Shown here piece after piece: positions 36,453-63,892 of a stretch of DNA of 64,000 bases. Made by a program: the position numbers and the translations under genes. The notes beneath the pieces are model-generated. The model ran no database searches. It saw nothing but the letters and a program-made list of their open reading frames with translations, and was not told where the DNA came from. The stretch is from an uncultured Clostridia bacterium. GTDB taxonomy: Bacteria > Bacillota > Clostridia > Saccharofermentanales > Saccharofermentanaceae. The DNA lies in contig CAMHSJ010000001.1 in NCBI GenBank assembly GCA_946187935.1, positions 1 to 64,000 on the forward strand, given 5' to 3'. Every line of letters begins with the position of its first letter. Position 1 is the first letter of the stretch.

Positions 36453-37112
36453 ATGAGTGATAACAACAATACCAGGACGTTGACCGAGGCTGAGCAGAAG
36501 AGAGTAGATGCCTTCAATGTTACAGAAGAGAAGCTGACAGGACAGGGCTATGTAAGAAAGGACCTGACGATATCTGTAGAAAAAGCAAATCTTGTAGGGC
36601 CTTTGCTCGTACTTCCGATAATCGCAGTGGTCATAGTGGTCTTTGCTTTGCTCCACGGAGTTACCCCTTTTGTAGATTTTTGGAAAAACAGCAGCATACT
36701 TACAGCAGTAGCGGTAATACTCGCAAGTCTGTCACTCGTGCCGCTCGCTGTTGTGCATGAGGGCATCCACGGCGTCTGCTGGAGTATATTTGCAAGAAAC
36801 CATATGAAGGATATAGAGTATGGTTTCATCAAGGAGAAGATCACTCCGTACTGTTATTGCAGAAGTCCTTTGTCCAAAGGTGCGTATATCTTCGGTTCCA
36901 TGATGCCGATGACGATACTGGGCCTTCTGGTCTGCATCCTTGGCATCATAATAGCAAGTCCGATCACTATGTTCATCGGCGTATTGCAGCTCTTGGGCGG
37001 TTCGGGCGATATCCTTATTACCTTCATGCTCTTAAGGTATAATGCCAAGGGCAAGGATGCGATCCTTATGGATCATCCGACAGAGTGCGGACTTATTGTT
37101 TTCGAGAAGTGA
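36453..37112 (+). CDS. DUF3267-type membrane zincin
   Basis: 219 residues from ATG 36453 behind GGGGAGAT. The second hydrophobic segment runs into 'VVHEGIHGVCW', an HExxH zinc site, and a later 'GSGDILITF' supplies a likely third ligand (Asp), as in the DUF3267 putative peptidases. Four membrane helices are expected. Intramembrane proteolysis is an inference from the motif. The stop codon lies inside a REP-like palindrome. Confidence 0.8.
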   Translation: MSDNNNTRTLTEAEQKRVDAFNVTEEKLTGQGYVRKDLTISVEKANLVGPLLVLPIIAVVIVVFALLHGVTPFVDFWKNSSILTAVAVILASLSLVPLAVVHEGIHGVCWSIFARNHMKDIEYGFIKEKITPYCYCRSPLSKGAYIFGSMMPMTILGLLVCILGIIIASPITMFIGVLQLLGGSGDILITFMLLRYNAKGKDAILMDHPTECGLIVFEK

Positions 37113-37135
37113 CAAGGGGACAGGCCTGTTGTCAC
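37109..37135 (+). repeat. REP-like palindrome, copy 1
   Basis: GTGACAA pairs with TTGTCAC around an inner CAGG/CCTG with a GGGGA bulge. The element begins on the stop codon of the DUF3267 gene. A 23/27 match lies at 56317. The form resembles REP sequences that are moved by RAYT/TnpA-REP transposases in Bacillota. Confidence 0.6.
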
Positions 37136-54853: not shown

Positions 54854-54940
54854 TTGCTTTGCCTCCTGATAGATTACTCCTAATTTTACCACGACTTCAG
54901 ATATAATTAGATTACTATTATGAGGCAATCGGAGATCACC

Positions 54941-56320
54941 ATGGGAAGCGAAGCGGTTATAAGCATCAAGGCACTTGGCAGCGAAGGGCAGGGAATAGGC
55001 GTCCTTGAGTCCGGCAAGACCGCTTTTGCAAAAGGAGTCTTCCCCGGCGAGACAGCAAGGGTCAGGATAGGTCGCGAGACTTCAAGATACTGCGAATGCG
55101 AAGTCTTGGAGCTTTTGGAACAGTCAGAAAACAGGATAAGTCCGTTCATCCCGCAGGATAAGGTCAGCGGCGGTCTTCCGCTGGCATGTCTCAGCTATAG
55201 CGGGCAGCTTAAGTTCAAGCATGACAAGGTAAGGGACTGCATCGTTAGGATTGCGGGCATCCCTGAAGCCAAGGCTGATGAGCTGATGCGCCCTATAAGA
55301 GGCGCGGGGGACAACCGCCGCTACAGAAACCACATGCAGTATGCGGTAGATAACGGCAAGATCGGTCTTCTGGTATCAGGTTCTCATGAACTCGGAACAT
55401 ACGACGAAGAACTGATAGAATACGAGATCTTCAGCAAGATCAGGCACAGGATAGAAAGCTCATTTGAAAGAGCGCCCACAAGGCTTCTTACAGGTCTGGT
55501 CTTAAGGGCATCTTTAAGGACAAAAGAAGTCCTGGCAGAGTTTGTTTCTTCGGGCACCGGTCCCCACGAAACATTGATAAGGGACATAACAAATTACCTC
55601 ACAGCAAGCGGGATAACTGAAGGCATAAGACAGGTCTTGCAGGATGACGGTTTTGATCTTAACGGCATTCTTCTTAGGATCAGTCCTGACAAGACATCTT
55701 TAAGGACACGCGGCGGTAAGCGCGTGGTAATAGAAGGCAAGGACTGCTACGATGAGATATTCTGCGGAAGAAGACTAAGGATCAAGGCAGGATCCTTTTT
55801 CCAGGTGAACACAGAGCAGGCCGAAGTCCTCTGTGAACTTGCAAGTGAAGGATTAAAGGGCAGCAAGGTCATCTACGATCTTTACTGCGGCTGCGGTACA
55901 CTGGGCATGGGAGTAAAAAGGGAAGGCCAGAAGATCTTCGGCATCGAGGCGGTGCCGGAGGCAATTGAATCTGCCAAGATCAACAGAAAGCTCGCTTTCC
56001 CGGGCGAAGAGGACGATCTTGATTATCTTTGCAGGGACGTCCTTAAGACGGACTTCAGATCTCTCATCGCCAAAGGCAAGATCCCAAGTTGCGACGCTGT
56101 CATCACTGACCCTCCGAGAAAGGGTATGGATGCAGGCGTCATAAAGAAGATCTTAGAACTTAATGCCCCCCGAATCGTCTACGTCTCCTGCGACCCTGCA
56201 ACCCTGGCAAGGGATCTTAAGCAGCTTACAAGAGTATATGAGATAAAGAGCATAACGCCCGTAGACATGTTCCCCAATGCGGCCGGAGTGGAGACGGTTT
56301 GCATGTTGATCAAAACGTGA
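54941..56320 (+). CDS. 23S rRNA (uracil-C5)-methyltransferase, RumA/RlmD/TrmA family
   Basis: 459 residues from ATG 54941, which has GGAG at good spacing; the tracked ATG seven codons earlier lacks one and lies only 13 bases after the TATAAT at 54902. A TRAM domain (about 1-60) is followed by the SAM domain 'VIYDLYCGCGTLGMG', 'VITDPPRKGMD' and catalytic Cys in 'VYVSCDPATLARDL'. In the place of the Fe-S cluster site (usually C-x-x-C...) only one Cys remains ('LACLSYSGQLKFK'). The exact uridine (TrmFO/RlmCD-like or RlmD) cannot be told. Its stop lies in a REP-like palindrome. Confidence 0.85.
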   Translation: MGSEAVISIKALGSEGQGIGVLESGKTAFAKGVFPGETARVRIGRETSRYCECEVLELLEQSENRISPFIPQDKVSGGLPLACLSYSGQLKFKHDKVRDCIVRIAGIPEAKADELMRPIRGAGDNRRYRNHMQYAVDNGKIGLLVSGSHELGTYDEELIEYEIFSKIRHRIESSFERAPTRLLTGLVLRASLRTKEVLAEFVSSGTGPHETLIRDITNYLTASGITEGIRQVLQDDGFDLNGILLRISPDKTSLRTRGGKRVVIEGKDCYDEIFCGRRLRIKAGSFFQVNTEQAEVLCELASEGLKGSKVIYDLYCGCGTLGMGVKREGQKIFGIEAVPEAIESAKINRKLAFPGEEDDLDYLCRDVLKTDFRSLIAKGKIPSCDAVITDPPRKGMDAGVIKKILELNAPRIVYVSCDPATLARDLKQLTRVYEIKSITPVDMFPNAAGVETVCMLIKT

Positions 56321-56343
56321 CAAAGGGACATGCCTTGTGTCAC
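56317..56343 (+). repeat. REP-like palindrome, copy 2
   Basis: GTGACA-AAGG pairs with CCTT-G-TGTCAC. It matches copy 1 at 37109 in 23 of 27 positions and again begins on the stop codon of the upstream gene. It marks the left edge of the AT-rich island. Confidence 0.6.
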
Positions 56344-56443
56344 ATAAAAGAGTGAGAAGAGGCATAGAAAAACAAAAAAGGAACGAGCAAGCCACAGTAC
56401 TATGGGAGTCAGATGGCATCAATCCATATAGCAATCAAGCTTA

Positions 56444-56746
56444 TTATAATGATGACAAGAATTTCAACAAAGCATCTTGTTGATCTTTATTCAGCTTACT
56501 GAAATGATCAATTAGCAATGCCTGTTTTTCTGTTAGTGTTACACTTTCGCCAGAGTCATTAAAGAACTGGGACAATGTGATATTGAACGCATTGCATATT
56601 TTCTCGAGAGACTGAACTGTTGGGCAAACATTCTTACGATACCATGATGAAATGGTTGTTTGCGGTATGTCAGATTCGACGGATAATCTGTATTCGCTCC
56701 AGCCTCTTTCTGTTCGTAAATCCAGAATCTTTTTCAACACATCCAT
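56444..56746 (-). CDS. XRE-family helix-turn-helix regulator
   Basis: 100 residues from ATG 56746 (the ATG 8 codons earlier is equally weak). The HTH spans about 4-58 ('LRTERGWSEYRLSVESDIPQTTISSW', 'SLEKICNAFNITLSQFF'), typical of phage-repressor-like proteins. A short helical C-terminus may dimerise it. It is divergent from the ChW protein gene across 181 AT-rich bases and probably regulates it or itself. Confidence 0.85.
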   Translation of the reverse strand: MDVLKKILDLRTERGWSEYRLSVESDIPQTTISSWYRKNVCPTVQSLEKICNAFNITLSQFFNDSGESVTLTEKQALLIDHFSKLNKDQQDALLKFLSSL

Positions 56747-56927
56747 TTTGTACCACTCGATAGTTAGCATTTTAGTAAATTTAATACGATGTTCACCAAC
56801 AGATAATAATTTTAGTAGTAGAATAATAACGACAAATAGTTATATCCAGCATTACCGTTCTGAATGTACTAATGCTTTTCAAATGAATATTAGCTATTTG
56901 CAGCCTATTATGAAGGAGGATTGATTA

Positions 56928-58502
56928 ATGAAAGGTAAAACCAAGTGGAGAAAGCTGATAGTGGTATTCGTAGCGCTATCTTTAGTCATGATGTTTATTC
57001 AGCCGCAGTTGTTAGCGGATACTACTGATGGTACTTACACAATTAGTTGGTCGCAAGAAAAACTCCCAGGATTTAATGTGGCATATCAGAGTAGCGCAAA
57101 AGCGGGAGAAAGAGCGAAAATATATATTACTCACTACAGAGAATTTGCATTTAATAGTGTAACTGTTAATGGTCAAGAAATAACAGAATACACCAATGAT
57201 GGAAGCTCAGTTAACAATTCAGACTATAACGAGGGCATAATTGTTGAGTTTGTTATGCCGGCAGAAGATGTTGAGTTTACTATCAATGCTACTTTGCCAG
57301 TTTACAAGATCACTTTAAACAAAAGTGAACATGGTACAGCTGTACTAGATAAGAATACGTTCTATCCTGATGACGAAATAAAACTGACTGTAAAACCAGA
57401 TGAAGGCTATGAAGTTGAATCCATTATTGTAGGCTGTACAGACTTCAATGGTTATTATACTGAAGAGGACATGTTATATTATTTCGAAGATGTTGATACT
57501 AATGAGTACCCAATATACACAGGCTATGGAGATACAACAGTCAATGTTTCGTTTAAAAAATCCGCTTCACCTTCACTTACAGGCGGAATAGCACATGTTC
57601 AGGACATAGGAAACAAACCAGCGACTACTGATGATTCAACAGGCATTCTTTCGCTTGGAACAACTGGACAGTCAAAGCGTCTAGAGAGCATCCTGATTGA
57701 CTTCGCTAATCCTACTTCATATTCAGGTGCTCTTGAATACAGAGTACATGTTCAGAACATTGGTTGGATGCCTTGGACAGGTGCAGGCAATCCTGTCGGT
57801 ACATCAGGTAAGGCTTTACGTCTTGAAGGTATTGAGATGCGTCTTACAGGAGAACTTGCTAAGCATTATTCTGTTGAGTATTGTGCACACATCCAGGACT
57901 ACGGAGATGCACAGGGCTGGGTAAGAGACGGCGCTTTGGCAGGAACAACTGGAGAATCTAAGAGAATCGAACAGATCAAGGTTAGGATTGTTCCTATCGA
58001 TAGTGATAATACAACTTCTGTAAATTACAGAGTGCATGTTCAGGATTACGGTTGGGAGTCCAAGTGGGCAGCGAACGGTGCTATGAGTGGTACACAAGGC
58101 CAGTCCAAGAGACTTGAAGGCATCGAGATACATCTTGGAGGATGCCAGTACTCAGGTGGTATCAGATACAAGACTCACATTCAGAACATCGGCTGGGAGA
58201 ACACATGGACACAAGACGGTGAGATGAGCGGAACGCAGGGCCAGTCTCTTAGACTTGAAGCTATTAAGATCGAGCTTTATGGAGAGATGGCATCTCATTA
58301 CGATGTTTACTATAGAGTACATGCACAGGATATTGGCTGGATGTCATGGGCGAGCAATGGAGCATCTGCAGGAACAGCTGGAAGGTCAGCAAGGCTCGAA
58401 GGCATACAGATCGTACTTGTACCTAAGGGTGCAGCAGCTCCGGGTGCTACATATCAGGGTATCACGGCAGTAGATTCTAGAGCATTTATTGAAGGATTCT
58501 AG
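56928..58502 (+). CDS. Secreted ChW-repeat surface protein
   Basis: 524 residues. The signal peptide covers about 1-30. Residues 35-205 hold two beta-rich modules like the repeat domains of surface proteins ('AGERAKIYITHYREFAFNSVTVNG', 'YKITLNKSEHGTAVLDKNTFYP'). From about 215 to 515 there are six ChW repeats (for example 'YRVHVQNIGWMPWTGAGN' and 'VHVQDYGWESKWAANG', each followed by 'GTxGxSxRLE-x-I'). ChW repeats are thought to bind proteins or sugars outside the cell. No sortase motif, so it is secreted. The first half is clearly AT-richer than neighbouring genes. GAAGGAGGATT precedes ATG. Confidence 0.88.
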   Translation: MKGKTKWRKLIVVFVALSLVMMFIQPQLLADTTDGTYTISWSQEKLPGFNVAYQSSAKAGERAKIYITHYREFAFNSVTVNGQEITEYTNDGSSVNNSDYNEGIIVEFVMPAEDVEFTINATLPVYKITLNKSEHGTAVLDKNTFYPDDEIKLTVKPDEGYEVESIIVGCTDFNGYYTEEDMLYYFEDVDTNEYPIYTGYGDTTVNVSFKKSASPSLTGGIAHVQDIGNKPATTDDSTGILSLGTTGQSKRLESILIDFANPTSYSGALEYRVHVQNIGWMPWTGAGNPVGTSGKALRLEGIEMRLTGELAKHYSVEYCAHIQDYGDAQGWVRDGALAGTTGESKRIEQIKVRIVPIDSDNTTSVNYRVHVQDYGWESKWAANGAMSGTQGQSKRLEGIEIHLGGCQYSGGIRYKTHIQNIGWENTWTQDGEMSGTQGQSLRLEAIKIELYGEMASHYDVYYRVHAQDIGWMSWASNGASAGTAGRSARLEGIQIVLVPKGAAAPGATYQGITAVDSRAFIEGF

Positions 58503-58534
58503 GAATAGGCTAACAGCTTTATGCAAGAAGAAGG

Positions 58535-58559
58535 GCCGGTTAATTCTAACCGGCTTTTC
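58535..58559 (+). terminator. Intrinsic terminator after the ChW protein
   Basis: GCCGGTTA pairs with TAACCGGC across ATTC, followed by TTTTCTCTTCT. It lies 33 bases after the stop. Confidence 0.9.
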
Positions 58560-58644
58560 TCTTCTGTTATGAATAATCATTCTTATTGCGTTGCCATGTT
58601 ATCGTAAAATTGGAATGCACATTGCAGCAGAGAAAATGTGTCAA

Positions 58645-58708
58645 ATTTGCATATCGTGTTGAATTATACATGCAAATATTGCATAATAAGCTTAGGGGCG
58701 TATGCAAA
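58645..58708 (+). promoter_or_regulatory. Promoter and repeated operator of the MNT-HEPN operon
   Basis: TTGAAT (58659-58664), 17-base spacer and CATAAT (58682-58687) form the promoter. An inverted repeat ATGCAA-ATA-TTGCAT (58670-58684) sits in the spacer and -10. Related words ATTTGCATAT (58645) and TATGCAAA (58701, touching the start codon) flank it. These are likely sites for the XRE domain of the antitoxin, giving self-repression. Confidence 0.65.
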
Positions 58709-59182
58709 ATGACTGAATTAAAGACTCTTAGAATCGAGAGAAAACTCACCCAAAAACAGGCTGCGGATACGATAGGCGTTTCCTTAAGGTCTTATGTCTC
58801 ATATGAGAACGACAGAGCTAAGTCAAATACTGCAAAATACAGATTCTTCCTGCAGGAGATATCCAAGCTCAATGTTGTCGATGAAGATCACGGAGTACTG
58901 ACATTAGATGAGATCACTTCCGTTTCGAATACTATTCTTCCCGATTACGATATAGATTACTGCTATTTGTTTGGTTCATATGCAAAGGGGGAGGCTGCTG
59001 ATTCAAGTGATGTAGATCTTCTAATTGCAACTAAGATTACCGGCATACGATACTATGAGATCGTTGAGCGTCTACGCGAGAAGCTTCGCAAAAGGGTCGA
59101 TGTTATTAACCTCAGCCAATTGGTCAACAACAGGGAACTCTTAAATGAAGTGCTCAAGGATGGTATCAAGATCTATGGGTAA
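58709..59182 (+). CDS. mntA: MNT nucleotidyltransferase antitoxin with N-terminal XRE domain
   Basis: 157 residues from ATG 58709 (AGGGG upstream); the longer tracked ORF starts within the promoter. Residues 1-50 are an HTH ('LRIERKLTQKQAADTIGVSLRSY'). Residues 60-155 are a minimal nucleotidyltransferase with the G-S-x10-D-x-D active site ('GSYAKGEAADSSDVDLLI'). In type VII systems MntA adds AMP to a Tyr of the HepT toxin and so silences it. The N-terminal HTH is not part of the standard MntA and would let the same protein act as repressor. It overlaps the toxin gene by 8 bases. Confidence 0.85.
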   Translation: MTELKTLRIERKLTQKQAADTIGVSLRSYVSYENDRAKSNTAKYRFFLQEISKLNVVDEDHGVLTLDEITSVSNTILPDYDIDYCYLFGSYAKGEAADSSDVDLLIATKITGIRYYEIVERLREKLRKRVDVINLSQLVNNRELLNEVLKDGIKIYG

Positions 59183-59501
59183 CATTAAAGGCGATGACTA
59201 TTTTTCTTCCAAGATCGTTGCTGATCTATCCTTTATTGTTGAACACACGAAGGATATCGATATATGTGAGTTGAGCCATAACGAGGTGTTGTTGGATTCG
59301 ATGATGTTTCGTTTGATACAGATATCCGAGAATGCCAAACGGTTGAGTGATGACTACAAGGAAAGACGCAACTACATACCTTGGATAGCCATATATGGTT
59401 TAAGAAACAGGATCGTTCATGATTATGGAAGTGTTGATCTGGATGTTATCTATTCAACGCTGAAAGATGACATACCTGTATTACTCGAAAAACTTCAGTG
59501 A
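59175..59501 (+). CDS. hepT: HEPN-domain toxin (HepT)
   Basis: 108 residues from ATG 59175, inside the end of the antitoxin gene. All-helical, with the diagnostic 'RNRIVHDYG', an R-x4-H-x-Y motif near the C-terminus: Arg and His form the RNase site and Tyr is the residue that MntA AMPylates. 'LDSMMFRLIQISENAKRL' is the dimer helix. Length and motif match HepT. The toxin cuts RNA when free of modification; the pair acts in stress or phage defence. Confidence 0.88.
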   Translation: MGNIKGDDYFSSKIVADLSFIVEHTKDIDICELSHNEVLLDSMMFRLIQISENAKRLSDDYKERRNYIPWIAIYGLRNRIVHDYGSVDLDVIYSTLKDDIPVLLEKLQ

Positions 59502-59595
59502 TACAATCTATTGTTCAAAGATTTTTAACGGTTACTATATTATAATTGTTTCATAATTGGAAGAACGGGCAGTCTGATCTGCTCCGGAGGACGTT

Positions 59596-62500
59596 ATGGA
59601 TAAGCAAAATGATATCTTCAGAAAGATAGCTGAATCGCTGCTGGTCGACTATTCCAGCGTTTACTATGTTAATGCGGTGACCAATGAATATTTTTGGTAT
59701 TCAGTTAATCCGGAATTCCATTCCCTGAGCCTTGAACAGGGCGGGGATGATTTCTTTAAGAACATCATAAGAGACTGCAGGCAGGTCGTCTACGAAGAGG
59801 ACCAGCATATCTTTATAGAGGATATCCAGAAGGACAAGCTCCTCGCCGCCATGAAGAAGGGCAGCATGAAGAACATAGAATACCGTCTCATGATTGGAGG
59901 CGTGCCGACATGGCATTCCCTGAGGATGATAAGGAGCCTTGATGATTCAGCGGATTACATTATCCTCGGCGTCACCAATATCGATGAGCAGTACCGCCAG
60001 AAGGAGATAGAAAAAGAGGTCACGCGTCAGAAAGAGGTCTACAACCAGATCGCTTCAAGTCTTGCGGGTCAGTATGACACCTTGTACTACATCGATCTTG
60101 AGACGAATACCTATGTTGAGATCTCATCTACGGACGATTACAAGAAGCTCAATGTTCCTGCAACAGGCAGCGACTTCTTTGCAGAGAGCAGAAGGAGCAT
60201 CCGCAAATACGTGCATCCGGAAGATCAGGACAAGGCCATGAAGATCCATTACAAGGACGCCATGCTCGCGAATCTTAAGCACAGGAATTCGTACTCTCTG
60301 TCCTGGCGTCTTGTTGTAAATGGTGTTGTTAAGCACATAAGGCATACCGAGATAATGGCCCATGACCGTAAGCACATTGTTGTTTGTATAGAGAATATCG
60401 ATGACGAGGTCAAGGCAAGCACGGAACTCAAGGAGACCCAGCAGAAGAGCATCACTTATTCCCAGATAGCAGAGAGCCTGGCATCGCAATATGACATGAT
60501 CTACTATGTGGACAGCCGGAGCGGCGCATACAAGGAATTTGCCACGCATAAGCTTTATGGCGAACTTGAGATCCAGGAAGAGAGCGATGACTTTTTCGGT
60601 GATGCAGAGCAGAATATCGACAGGATCATCTATCCTGAAGACAGGCAGAGACTAAAGCTCTTCCTTAACAAGGACAATCTCATATCACAGCTTGATGAGA
60701 AAAAACAGCTAATTGAAGATTACCGCATGACGGCAGGCAAGAAGCCGCAGTATACCCGTATGACGGTAACCTGGTCTTCTGACAGGTCGCACTTCATAAT
60801 ATGTGTCGAGAACCGCGAAGAAGTCGTCAAGAAAGAGAAGGAGCACTTAAGAGCTCTTACGATGGCCAACGAGACAGCCAGAAGGGACCTTCTTACCGGG
60901 ACACGCAACAGAACGGCTTATCTTGAATATGAGAAAGAGCTCCAGGCTAAGCTGGATGATAAGACCTGTGAACCCTTTGGCATCATCGTATGCGACCTTA
61001 ATGATCTTAAGCTCATTAACGATACGCAGGGGCATAAGGCGGGAGATGAATATATCAGGAATTCGTGCAGGTTCATCTGCAGGGTGTTCTCGCACAGCCC
61101 GGTATTCAGGACCGGAGGAGATGAGTTTGTCATCTTCCTCATGGATCAGGATTATATCGACCGTGAGAATCTGTTTCTCACATTCAGGAAGCAGATAGAG
61201 GAGAATGCCAGGACCGGCGAAGGGGCGATAATCGCCATGGGAATGTCTGAGTACAAGCCTGACGATGACAAGATGGTCGAGGAAGTCTTTAACCGCGCGG
61301 ACGGACGCATGTACGAAGACAAGAATCACCTTAAGGAGATCAAGCTCTTAAGAGAGAGCCGCGTGATGAAAGATAATGCCAACGCCAAGGTGATCACGGA
61401 AGACAGAAGGAAGATGCTCGATGCTCTGTTTAAGTCCTATGACGTCGTATCAGAAGGAACTTATGTATTTCTCTGTGACATGAAGTACGATTTCTCCAAG
61501 TGGTCGAAGAATGCGGTGGATACTTACGAACTCCCTTCTGAATATATGTATGGCGCAGGGGACATATGGGAGAACTATATCCATCCCGAAGACCGCGATG
61601 CCTACCATAAGGGCATAGACGAGATCTTTTCGGGTGGTTCATCGGGACACGATATGCAGTACCGCGCAAGAAAGCCGGACGGCAGCTACGATGTGTGCAC
61701 CTGCAGGGGCGTTGTAATAAGAGATCTTCTCGGGGAACCGGACTATTTCGTCGGAACGATAAGAAACCACGGATCGCAGGGACATGTTGACACGCTGACG
61801 GGCCTTCGTAACCAGTATGGTTTCTTCGAGGATCTTGAGGGCTGGATCAAGAGAAAAGCTGAGATATTCGTTCTTATCGTGGGCATAAGCAAGTTCTCGG
61901 AGATCAACGAGGTCTACGGCTATCACTTCGGCAACCGCGTGCTCCAGCTTTTCGCGAGGAAAGTATTCGAGAATACCGGCAACAGCGGAGTGTGCTACAG
62001 GATCGACGGCACCAAGTTTGCGGTGATAAGTAATTCCTTGTCCGCCGATGAGCTTCAGGAGCGATATTCAAAGTTCAGGAATTACTTCAGGGAAGTCTTC
62101 CAGGTCGATGACAAGCGCATCCTTCTCGAAGTAAACTGCGGCGCGCTCAAGCTCGACCAGTTCGAGTTTGACCCGCAGACGGTATATTCCTGCCTTAACT
62201 ATGCATACACGGAATCCAAGTCCTACCGTCAGGGCGATATGGTCATGTTCCAGAATGACCTGGGTGAGGATAACAGACAGAGGCTCGAGAAGCTCCACGC
62301 TATCAGGGCTTCGATAAAGCATGGCTACAGGGGCTTTTATCTTCTTTATCAGCCTGTTGTCGATGCACAGACAGAAGAACTGATCTCGGCTGAAGCCCTC
62401 CTTCGCTGGAAGAGCGATACTTACGGAGTTGTTCCTCCGGACCAGTTCATACCGCTGCTCGAATCCGATCCGCTCTTCCCTGAGCTCGGCGAATGGATAA

Positions 62501-63069
62501 TAAGAGAGGCTGTGGTCGCAGCCAAGAAGGTCATAAAGAAGATCCCGTCATTTGTGGTCAACATCAATCTGTCCTATACCCAGATACAGAAACCTGATTT
62601 TGTCGACATGGTATTCCGCATCCTGGATGATATGGATTATCCGCCTGAGCATCTCTGTTTCGAGGTTACTGAAAGATGCAGGCTCCTTGACATCAAGCTC
62701 CTTAAGAATGTTACCACGAGTCTTAAGGCCAGAGGCGTGCTGATCGCTCTTGATGACTTCGGTACCGGATTCTCTTCTGTCGGCATCGTAAAGGAGCTTC
62801 CGTTAGACATCATAAAGATCGATCAGGGCTTTGTAAGAAAGATCGAAGAAGACAAGGTCGACAGGGAACTGATCAAGCACTTCTCAGGACTTGCATCGCT
62901 CTTTGGCGCCAAGGTATGTGTCGAAGGCGTTGAGACAGTCGGCATAAGGAACATACTCCAGAAGTTCAAGGTCGAGAGTTTCCAGGGCTACTACTATGCA
63001 AGACCGCTTAAGCTTAATGAGTTCATTGCCTGGGAGATGGACAGGCTTAAGGAAGAAAACGGGAATTAA
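59596..63069 (+). CDS. PAS-GGDEF-PAS-GGDEF-EAL cyclic-di-GMP protein
   Basis: 1157 residues, cytoplasmic. Three PAS-like repeats of about 140 residues open the protein, each with a 'YYV-x-x-x-T/S-x-x-Y' strand (about 23, 156 and 301). The first GGDEF domain (about 437-590) has an intact 'RTGGDEF' at residue 507; its inhibitory RxxD site is absent. A fourth PAS (about 615-735) precedes a degenerate second GGDEF ('RIDGTKF'). EAL follows (about 905-1150), with 'EALLRW' near 933, 'LDDFGTGFSS', 'KIDQGF' and 'CVEGVET' all intact. So it may both make and break c-di-GMP, switched by PAS signals. Confidence 0.9.
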   Translation: MDKQNDIFRKIAESLLVDYSSVYYVNAVTNEYFWYSVNPEFHSLSLEQGGDDFFKNIIRDCRQVVYEEDQHIFIEDIQKDKLLAAMKKGSMKNIEYRLMIGGVPTWHSLRMIRSLDDSADYIILGVTNIDEQYRQKEIEKEVTRQKEVYNQIASSLAGQYDTLYYIDLETNTYVEISSTDDYKKLNVPATGSDFFAESRRSIRKYVHPEDQDKAMKIHYKDAMLANLKHRNSYSLSWRLVVNGVVKHIRHTEIMAHDRKHIVVCIENIDDEVKASTELKETQQKSITYSQIAESLASQYDMIYYVDSRSGAYKEFATHKLYGELEIQEESDDFFGDAEQNIDRIIYPEDRQRLKLFLNKDNLISQLDEKKQLIEDYRMTAGKKPQYTRMTVTWSSDRSHFIICVENREEVVKKEKEHLRALTMANETARRDLLTGTRNRTAYLEYEKELQAKLDDKTCEPFGIIVCDLNDLKLINDTQGHKAGDEYIRNSCRFICRVFSHSPVFRTGGDEFVIFLMDQDYIDRENLFLTFRKQIEENARTGEGAIIAMGMSEYKPDDDKMVEEVFNRADGRMYEDKNHLKEIKLLRESRVMKDNANAKVITEDRRKMLDALFKSYDVVSEGTYVFLCDMKYDFSKWSKNAVDTYELPSEYMYGAGDIWENYIHPEDRDAYHKGIDEIFSGGSSGHDMQYRARKPDGSYDVCTCRGVVIRDLLGEPDYFVGTIRNHGSQGHVDTLTGLRNQYGFFEDLEGWIKRKAEIFVLIVGISKFSEINEVYGYHFGNRVLQLFARKVFENTGNSGVCYRIDGTKFAVISNSLSADELQERYSKFRNYFREVFQVDDKRILLEVNCGALKLDQFEFDPQTVYSCLNYAYTESKSYRQGDMVMFQNDLGEDNRQRLEKLHAIRASIKHGYRGFYLLYQPVVDAQTEELISAEALLRWKSDTYGVVPPDQFIPLLESDPLFPELGEWIIREAVVAAKKVIKKIPSFVVNINLSYTQIQKPDFVDMVFRILDDMDYPPEHLCFEVTERCRLLDIKLLKNVTTSLKARGVLIALDDFGTGFSSVGIVKELPLDIIKIDQGFVRKIEEDKVDRELIKHFSGLASLFGAKVCVEGVETVGIRNILQKFKVESFQGYYYARPLKLNEFIAWEMDRLKEENGN

Positions 63070-63072
63070 CAT

Positions 63073-63684
63073 ATGGATCAAAAACAGAGAATGATCGCGA
63101 ACTTGCCTTATAAGGCCTGGATGGACGGCCTTTTGGAGGACAGGGAGGAGACTAAGAAAAAGGTCTATGAGTACAACAGCCTTCCGCCTGAAAGATGGGG
63201 TGAGAGGACAAAGCTCATCAAGGCCATACTCGGCAAGACAGGTGATCAGATCCATGTCGAAGCGCCCTTCAGGTGTGATTACGGATACAACATTGAAGTC
63301 GGTGAGAATTTTTATGCCAACTACAACCTCATAATCCTTGATGTGGGCAAGGTAAGGATCGGTGACAATGCCCAGATCGCTCCCAATGTAGGCATCTACA
63401 CAGCAGGTCATCCCATCCACCCCGACTCCAGGAATTCAGGGTATGAGTACGGCATTGACATCACCATAGGAAACAATGTCTGGATCGGAGCCAATTCCGT
63501 AATACTGCCCGGAGTCACCATAGGAGATAACGCCGTCATAGGTGCGGGAAGTGTTGTTTCCAAGGACATCCCATCTGATGTCATCGCCGTCGGCAATCCC
63601 TGCAGGGTCATAAGGAAGATCACAGAAGAAGACAGGGACTTCTACTACAAAGACAGAAGATTTGATGTGGATGATTACAAGTAA
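63073..63684 (+). CDS. Sugar O-acetyltransferase (maltose acetyltransferase-like)
   Basis: 203 residues. The N-terminal helices 'LPYKAWMDGLLEDREETKK' and the hexapeptide left-handed helix ('IGDNAQIAPNVGIYTAG', 'IGNNVWIGANSVILPGVTIG') are those of Maa/NodL/LacA. The catalytic His is in 'TAGHPIHPDSR'. It moves acetyl from acetyl-CoA to a sugar hydroxyl, as a trimer in the cytoplasm. Its ATG is 3 bases after the EAL gene's stop, so the two are co-transcribed. Confidence 0.88.
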   Translation: MDQKQRMIANLPYKAWMDGLLEDREETKKKVYEYNSLPPERWGERTKLIKAILGKTGDQIHVEAPFRCDYGYNIEVGENFYANYNLIILDVGKVRIGDNAQIAPNVGIYTAGHPIHPDSRNSGYEYGIDITIGNNVWIGANSVILPGVTIGDNAVIGAGSVVSKDIPSDVIAVGNPCRVIRKITEEDRDFYYKDRRFDVDDYK

Positions 63685-63728
63685 AAGACTCAGCCGCAAA
63701 CCGGGCCGGTAAACCTTCTAACAGTTAA

Positions 63729-63836
63729 ATTGCATATTTATTGCTTAAAATCGGATTTCACGTACTGAATATGCAAAAATCGGTGGTTATTGCGTCTTGA
63801 GTACGTGAAATGCATTTTCGCGTACTGAATATGCAA
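63729..63836. repeat. Cluster of direct and inverted repeats in the spacer
   Basis: CGTACTGAATATGCAA occurs at 63761 and 63821, exactly 60 bases apart. ATTTCACGTACT (63755-63766) is inverted as AGTACGTGAAAT (63800-63811). TTGCATATT (about 63730) is the inverse of the AATATGCAA in both direct copies. Function unknown; the words ATGCAA/TTGCAT also occur in the MNT-HEPN operator. Confidence 0.7.
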
Positions 63837-63892
63837 TTTCTTGATCTGTCTATGAGTTTAAGCCTTAAGAGAGCCGCAGGAAAGCAAACAGA

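Follow-up and report, generated by a model that had tools for sequence, protein, structure and literature searches.

Downstream of an rlmD-like RNA methyltransferase gene of an uncultured Clostridia bacterium (Saccharofermentanaceae) there is an AT-rich stretch of DNA which, as an 'island', is ordinary, yet which holds what is well supported as a variant of the HepT-MntA toxin-antitoxin system, one in which the antitoxin, MntA, is fused to a helix-turn-helix (HTH). The stretch lies within what is here described as the window, that is, the 64 kb with which a contig of 223 kb (CAMHSJ010000001.1) begins, from a 1.95 Mb genome that is assembled in 44 contigs. Probably, the locus is a high-turnover spot carrying patchwork cargo, with that cargo consisting of a unit built around an XRE-type regulator along with an HTH-fused, self-repressing, type VII HepT-MntA pair. 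Relatives obtained by name carry the labels Mageeibacillus sp., Saccharofermentans sp., and Ruminococcaceae bacterium (class Clostridia). Comparisons employed a set of 59 genomes (the genome itself plus 58 congeners), 85 genomes of the genus for surveying the XRE regulator, and 391 genomes of the class for surveying HTH-MntA. Coordinates are collected in Table 1.

The toxin-antitoxin pair posited by an earlier, sequence-only reading of this DNA is real and is of a mobile kind, as seen in its domains, its intact motifs, and the occurrence of relatives both at other sites and in phage contigs. The gene for MntA comes first, followed immediately by that for HepT, with the two overlapping by 8 bp. 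The RX4HXY motif of HepT is intact (RNRIVHDY), as too is the GSX10DXD motif of MntA (GSYAKGEAADSSDVD), and these are the motifs which mark active HepT-MntA pairs (PMC7641770). MntA matches Polbeta and NTP_transf_2 above cut-off, with its N-terminus matching instead HTH_3 and HTH_19 of Pfam. An AlphaFold model of the protein (pLDDT 87) consists of an HTH at residues 1-52, a weak linker at approximately 56-58, and a minimal nucleotidyltransferase (MNT) domain at 66-156, and fold searching of the PDB returns MNT antitoxins as leading matches. HepT, searched against the PDB by sequence, has no match at 0.001. PADLOC identifies MntA solely as candidate family PDC-S09, along with weaker, partial matches, and HepT not at all. 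What is found, then, is what defines type VII systems, i.e., a HEPN toxin with RX4HXY, an MNT antitoxin with GSX10DXD, and adjacent, overlapping genes of which the antitoxin's is first.

The antitoxin's HTH is accompanied by a palindromic candidate operator, O1, which overlaps the predicted promoter of the operon, a combination that is expected of a self-repressing antitoxin. The core of O1 would be expected 0.02 times in the window. In three other genomes (G025, G067, G001), whose pairs are found at other sites, two such palindromes recur at a spacing of 32-33 bp. To generalize, 19 regions upstream of HTH-MntA genes, from a class-wide sample along with phage contigs, were compared with 479 control upstreams. 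Perfect 6-3-6 palindromes (arms of 6 bp about a spacer of 3 bp) are present in 13 of the 19 versus 31 of the 479 controls (6.5%), for which the nominal p = 6.5e-12 overstates independence as the 19 loci share descent; allowing one mismatch, the former becomes 17 of 19. With dinucleotide shuffling, inverted repeats are seen in 15 of the 19 upstreams versus 4.6 expected. Twin sites are spaced at 32-33 bp in 12 HTH-MntA loci. The arms of these palindromes vary by subgroup (TGCAA, GTGCCA, ACGCAA) while their geometry stays constant, which speaks for co-evolution of operator and HTH. No such palindromes are seen upstream of two MNT genes of the genus that were examined and have no HTH (L029, L031).

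We thus envisage that the HTH of the antitoxin would bind the twin palindromes that lie over its own promoter, resulting in repression of the operon, whereas the nucleotidyltransferase domain would adenylylate the tyrosine of the HepT RX4HXY motif, silencing the putative RNase. Should antitoxin levels then drop, HepT would be freed and the promoter opened. From a different perspective, the palindromes might be bound by some other regulator instead, with the HTH of MntA being vestigial. In favor of that, the MntA of Shewanella oneidensis represses its own promoter, which it binds without a recognisable DNA-binding domain (PMC4621449), so that an HTH is not required. The palindromes, however, stay with the HTH-MntA gene where it occurs in phage contigs and in genomes that are unrelated, changing as its subgroup changes, and the HTH is conserved (with invariant residues including R8, T14, Q15, R27, and Y29). 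Furthermore, a second, unrelated HTH-MNT group within the genus, as considered below, possesses twin palindromes which are different. Another regulator therefore is a very improbable explanation, and binding by the antitoxin's own HTH remains the preferred one.

HTH-MntA matches are seen in 18 of the 391 class genomes, with about 15 of these representing full-length fusions. Nearly all congeners lack the pair, and those possessing it have it at other sites. In one phage contig (L156:1465-5309) an HTH-MntA/HepT pair is located between the genes for the terminase large subunit and the portal, with a second phage contig (L185:4157-8154) read, by likeness to the first, as having the same gene order. 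A 'bacteriophage' record, MT836394, was excluded from the phage evidence, as the genes it carries make it resemble a bacterial chromosome. Nor do plasmids suggest an origin, there being 0 matches in 72,556 plasmid records. At several loci (L059, L061, L167, L168, L169, L183) HepT is truncated or missing but MntA is kept, and the operators of such orphan antitoxins often are intact. The second, independent pair of an HTH-MNT fusion (HTH_26 plus Polbeta) with a HepT-like partner is found in G024, G073, G075, and G026, between rpsI-like and tsaE-like genes. Three of its four upstreams bear twin palindromes, e.g., TATAACAC-N4-GTGTTATA, which are approximately 31 bp apart; by locus, these TATAACAC and GTGTTATA twins are those of L032 (1092-1944) and L034, with a related pair in L035, the remaining locus being L033. 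HepT is not seen in L030 and L036.

Taken together, we lean toward a reading in which HTH-fused MntAs represent a separate type VII group of Clostridia and their phages, one combining repressor and toxin-modifying enzyme in a single protein that reads an operator of two palindromes at a constant spacing of 32-33 bp, with a second HTH-MNT fusion having arisen independently in the genus. Antitoxins that have outlived a decayed HepT may, in addition, persist as anti-addiction or anti-phage modules. A number of points weigh against the self-repressing type VII interpretation. DNA binding, repression, adenylylation, RNase toxicity, and any role in defence are predictions based on sequence. The second operator of the window is degenerate, and the broader test leaves 4 of the 19 upstreams without a perfect inverted repeat. 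With HepT cut short or missing in several loci, not every copy can be an active toxin-antitoxin pair. Both proteins miss the NCBIfam equivalog cut-offs (NF047752 and NF047751; 52.4 for MntA and 33.2 for HepT, versus 60 for each), and the pair therefore is filed as a variant of HepT-MntA rather than as an equivalog. The assembly's 44 contigs, lastly, leave room for assembly error.

The other unit of the stretch pairs the XRE regulator with a divergently transcribed ChW-repeat surface-protein gene. At a threshold of E <= 1e-15, the XRE subfamily is found in 6 of the 85 genus genomes, and among those six it follows rlmD only here and in G065. The two homologues sharing that site are 84% identical at saturated synonymous divergence (dS), as is so also for flanking genes, and the arrangement therefore is old and under constraint. 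Recent transfer of the XRE gene between these two lineages was considered, and is ruled out by those same saturated synonymous sites. Approximately the first 105 bp upstream of XRE are conserved with G065, but the divergent neighbour is not, being ChW here and a zinc-ribbon/Ig-like protein in G065. A homologue in G006 is divergent to a ChW gene as well. Upstream of four XRE homologues is the palindrome TCGTA-N8-TACGA, with TAGTA-N7-TACGA seen here and in G065. The predicted operator would be expected 0.10 times in the window, and across the class its motif is strong only within the genus, being sparse elsewhere. Going by these sequence features, the XRE regulator probably is an autorepressor which also controls its divergent neighbour, i.e., here it would repress both itself and the ChW gene. 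The divergent neighbours of the subfamily (L109:9374-10967; L110:5078-7164; L123) often are secreted or membrane proteins, including two ChW proteins, the zinc-ribbon/Ig-like protein, and lipoprotein-like open reading frames (ORFs), and sometimes are a protein that starts with RVCFTGHRPEKL. As for this being a 'phage-type repressor', as previously described, the family likeness holds though phage specificity does not: relatives come from phage records (35-47% identity in the best rows) but also adjoin chromosomal genes, those for the envelope included, and the idea of a phage repressor as such was set aside as unspecific.

With regard to the ChW protein, its best match among the 59 genomes is a paralogue from its own genome, on contig C22. 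As is typical of ChW-repeat surface proteins of Clostridia, it possesses a signal-like N-terminus, a Flg_new_2 domain, and six ChW repeats, and nothing is unusual other than family size, which at 25 matches is strongly expanded for a genome as small as 1.95 Mb. A terminator-like hairpin, of a sort of which 2.2 are expected in the region, separates this gene from the toxin-antitoxin operon, and the two parts look like separate units. As to structural RNA, Rfam gives no match.

The genes named earlier are all present by Pfam (XRE, as HTH_3; the ChW protein; and the nucleotidyltransferase with HepT-like RNase), and the drop in GC that had been described as following the RNA methyltransferase gene and recovering near the cyclic-di-GMP gene is borne out by the GC profile and by individual genes. 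GC thus is about 0.50 up to 56.2 kb, then falls to 0.35-0.40, and has recovered by approximately 59.75 kb. Among 236 genes of the same genome (about 299 kb), XRE lies at GC percentile 1, ChW at 4, MntA at 2, and HepT at 1, with codon usage odd in all four, whereas the GGDEF-EAL gene (at 45) and the acetyltransferase gene (at 50) are ordinary and the rlmD-like gene is at 82. The dip is not, however, uniform: the N-terminal part of the ChW gene is at percentile 1 but its repeats are at 21. An AT-rich patch such as this may have been long resident, with its composition owing to gene classes that are relaxed or specialised and not to a recent arrival. XRE, consistently, is kept at the same place in G065, with dS saturated, and is AT-rich there too (GC3, i.e., third-codon-position GC, of 0.39 and 0.25), while one ChW paralogue (L108) has a GC3 of only 0.41. 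Two other ChW paralogues nevertheless are of normal GC, and the toxin-antitoxin pair is absent from nearly all congeners, occupying other sites where present, all of which leaves long residence of the whole patch a doubtful explanation.

What the synteny points to instead is turnover. The rlmD-like gene is found in 59 of 59 genomes and has, to its left and divergent from it, a penicillin-binding protein gene in every congener locus that was read, but the first gene to its right changes in nearly every one of those congeners. G011, which along with G015 is the closest relative by rlmD identity, is syntenic with the window over w1-w9 and w16-w23 (L050), the left block including the rlmD-like gene and the right block starting with an esterase gene (63893). 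Between these blocks in G011 are three unrelated ORFs, of which one is for a PadR regulator and another for an alpha/beta hydrolase, with the third lacking any Pfam match, and in G015 another gene starts after the rlmD-like gene (MYIKRSLENRV..., read from sequence). As the G011 blocks enclose other genes, the variable segment here runs from 56,321 to approximately 63,892 and includes the GGDEF-EAL gene, relatives of which have other neighbourhoods in other genomes. That gene content varies between conserved blocks accordingly stands, though the cyclic-di-GMP gene does not serve as the right boundary, its normal GC notwithstanding.

The sequence-only reading had seen in the AT-rich stretch a single acquired defence/adhesion island, one that would have entered as a unit between the rlmD-like and GGDEF-EAL genes. 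Four adjoining genes do share low GC and odd codon use, and there is a repetitive extragenic palindromic (REP) element at the left edge. No integrase, transposase, or other mobility gene, however, is among the genes found at 56.3-63.9 kb, no tRNA is found in the window, edge-to-edge direct repeats are missing from 56100-59700, and no target duplication is seen. The empty site that synteny was to reveal likewise was not found, as readable relatives, among which there is no same-species strain, hold other genes there. The variable segment as defined by G011, moreover, reaches beyond the GGDEF-EAL gene, XRE is old at the site, the ChW gene is closest to a paralogue in its own genome, and the toxin-antitoxin pair occurs elsewhere without XRE or ChW. 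Entry as a single island is therefore quite unlikely. Rather, the spot downstream of the rlmD-like gene probably is one of high gene turnover, where two or more independent units of cargo make up the AT-rich stretch as a patchwork beside a REP element.

That element, previously described as 'REP-like', is a true REP, consisting of a dispersed intergenic palindrome together with a linked Y1 transposase. It has a DNA-hairpin z of -3.4, and allowing up to 3 mismatches the genome has 19 copies versus 0 copies in the 58 congeners and 0 matches for a reversed control pattern. The genome's one Y1/RAYT transposase gene (L094:1067-1846, contig C5) has REP copies at both ends, and scores 59.6 bits against NCBIfam REP_Tyr_transpos, which is below the cut-off of 80. 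An ORF of at least 100 aa takes its stop codon from the TGA of the REP foot in 6 of the 25 copies examined, while among GTGACA sites elsewhere the TGA serves in this way at 3 of 101 (Fisher p = 0.002). It is as if REP copies insert at, or trim, gene ends. Copies noted as supplying the stop codon of the preceding gene are that at the left edge, one at 37110-37134 of the window, and those at L092, L095, L101, and L102. Relative to other REP/RAYT systems, the short dispersed palindrome and single, REP-flanked Y1 transposase gene are alike; what differs is that copies are few (about 19-25) and that the preceding gene often takes its stop codon from the REP foot.

Table 1. Positions of features within the 64-kb window
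Feature	Positions	Strand	Basis or remark
rlmD-like 23S rRNA/tRNA uracil-5-methyltransferase gene (left flank)	54920..56320	+	Pfam TRAM and tRNA_U5-meth_tr
REP element, 25-mer TGACAAAGGGACATGCCTTGTGTCA	56318-56342	+	dispersed repeat; its TGA ends the rlmD-like gene
Variable segment as a whole, flanked by syntenic blocks	56321..63892	.	comparison with G011
XRE regulator of Cro/CI type, with 56746 the likely ATG start	56444..56770	-	HTH_3 E=3e-8
Predicted XRE operator TAGTA-N7-TACGA, divergent XRE/ChW intergenic region	56773..56789	+	identical in G065
Secreted ChW-repeat surface protein with divergent InlB B-repeat	56928..58502	+	Pfam ChW E=9e-87, 6 repeats; Flg_new_2
Intrinsic terminator-like hairpin between ChW and toxin-antitoxin unit	58529..58560	+	14-pair stem, T-rich tail
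Predicted operator O2 (degenerate) TGTCAAATTTGCA	58639..58651	+	32 bp upstream of O1
Sigma-70-like promoter TTGAAT-17-CATAAT of toxin-antitoxin operon	58659..58687	+	same layout upstream in G025, G067, G001
Predicted operator O1, ATGCAA-ATA-TTGCAT	58670..58684	+	between -35 (TTGAAT) and -10 (CATAAT)
HTH-MntA, XRE helix-turn-helix fused to minimal nucleotidyltransferase	58709..59182	+	Pfam HTH_3 and Polbeta, alignment
HepT RNase toxin (predicted)	59175..59501	+	PF01934 E=1.2e-17, cut-off passed
GGDEF-EAL gene, native composition, within variable segment	59596..63069	+	Pfam, GC percentile, synteny
Maltose/galactoside O-acetyltransferase-like gene, within variable segment	63073..63684	+	profile match

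A repressor domain that is built into the antitoxin, along with an operator that can be read, makes the link of AMP transfer to transcription directly testable. The presence of related pairs between phage terminase and portal genes suggests, in addition, that they act in conflicts of phage with phage or of phage with host. We found no account of an HTH-fused MntA in the open-access literature, to which the search was confined, and novelty thus is provisional. A 2009 survey, in which toxin and antitoxin roles are reversed, held its antitoxin unlikely to be a transcription regulator (PMC2701414).

Among known systems close to this one is HepT-MntA of S. oneidensis (SO_3166/SO_3165), which similarly has antitoxin-toxin gene order with overlap, a HEPN RNase with RX4HXY, and a nucleotidyltransferase with GSX10DXD (PMC7641770). 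SO_3165, however, has no predicted DNA-binding domain and two dissimilar promoter palindromes (PMC4621449), versus here a fused XRE HTH and twin sites which are of one geometry across loci. The HEPN-MNT of Legionella pneumophila (PDB 8xeh, 8xeo) supplies the best structural matches to the MNT domain of the window, but with an MNT chain of 108 residues, and only the MNT part of the window's protein aligns. Xress-MNTss of Streptococcus suis (PMC8406773) is reported to be an autoregulated system that likewise combines XRE and MNT, though there the two are separate proteins and it is MNT that is called the toxin. With type II antitoxins that possess an HTH and twin operators, e.g., MqsA, what is shared is an antitoxin predicted here to bind DNA, with repression of its own operon expected as well. 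In type II systems, however, the toxin is silenced by binding, whereas the antitoxin described here carries, in addition, an intact AMP-transferase motif.

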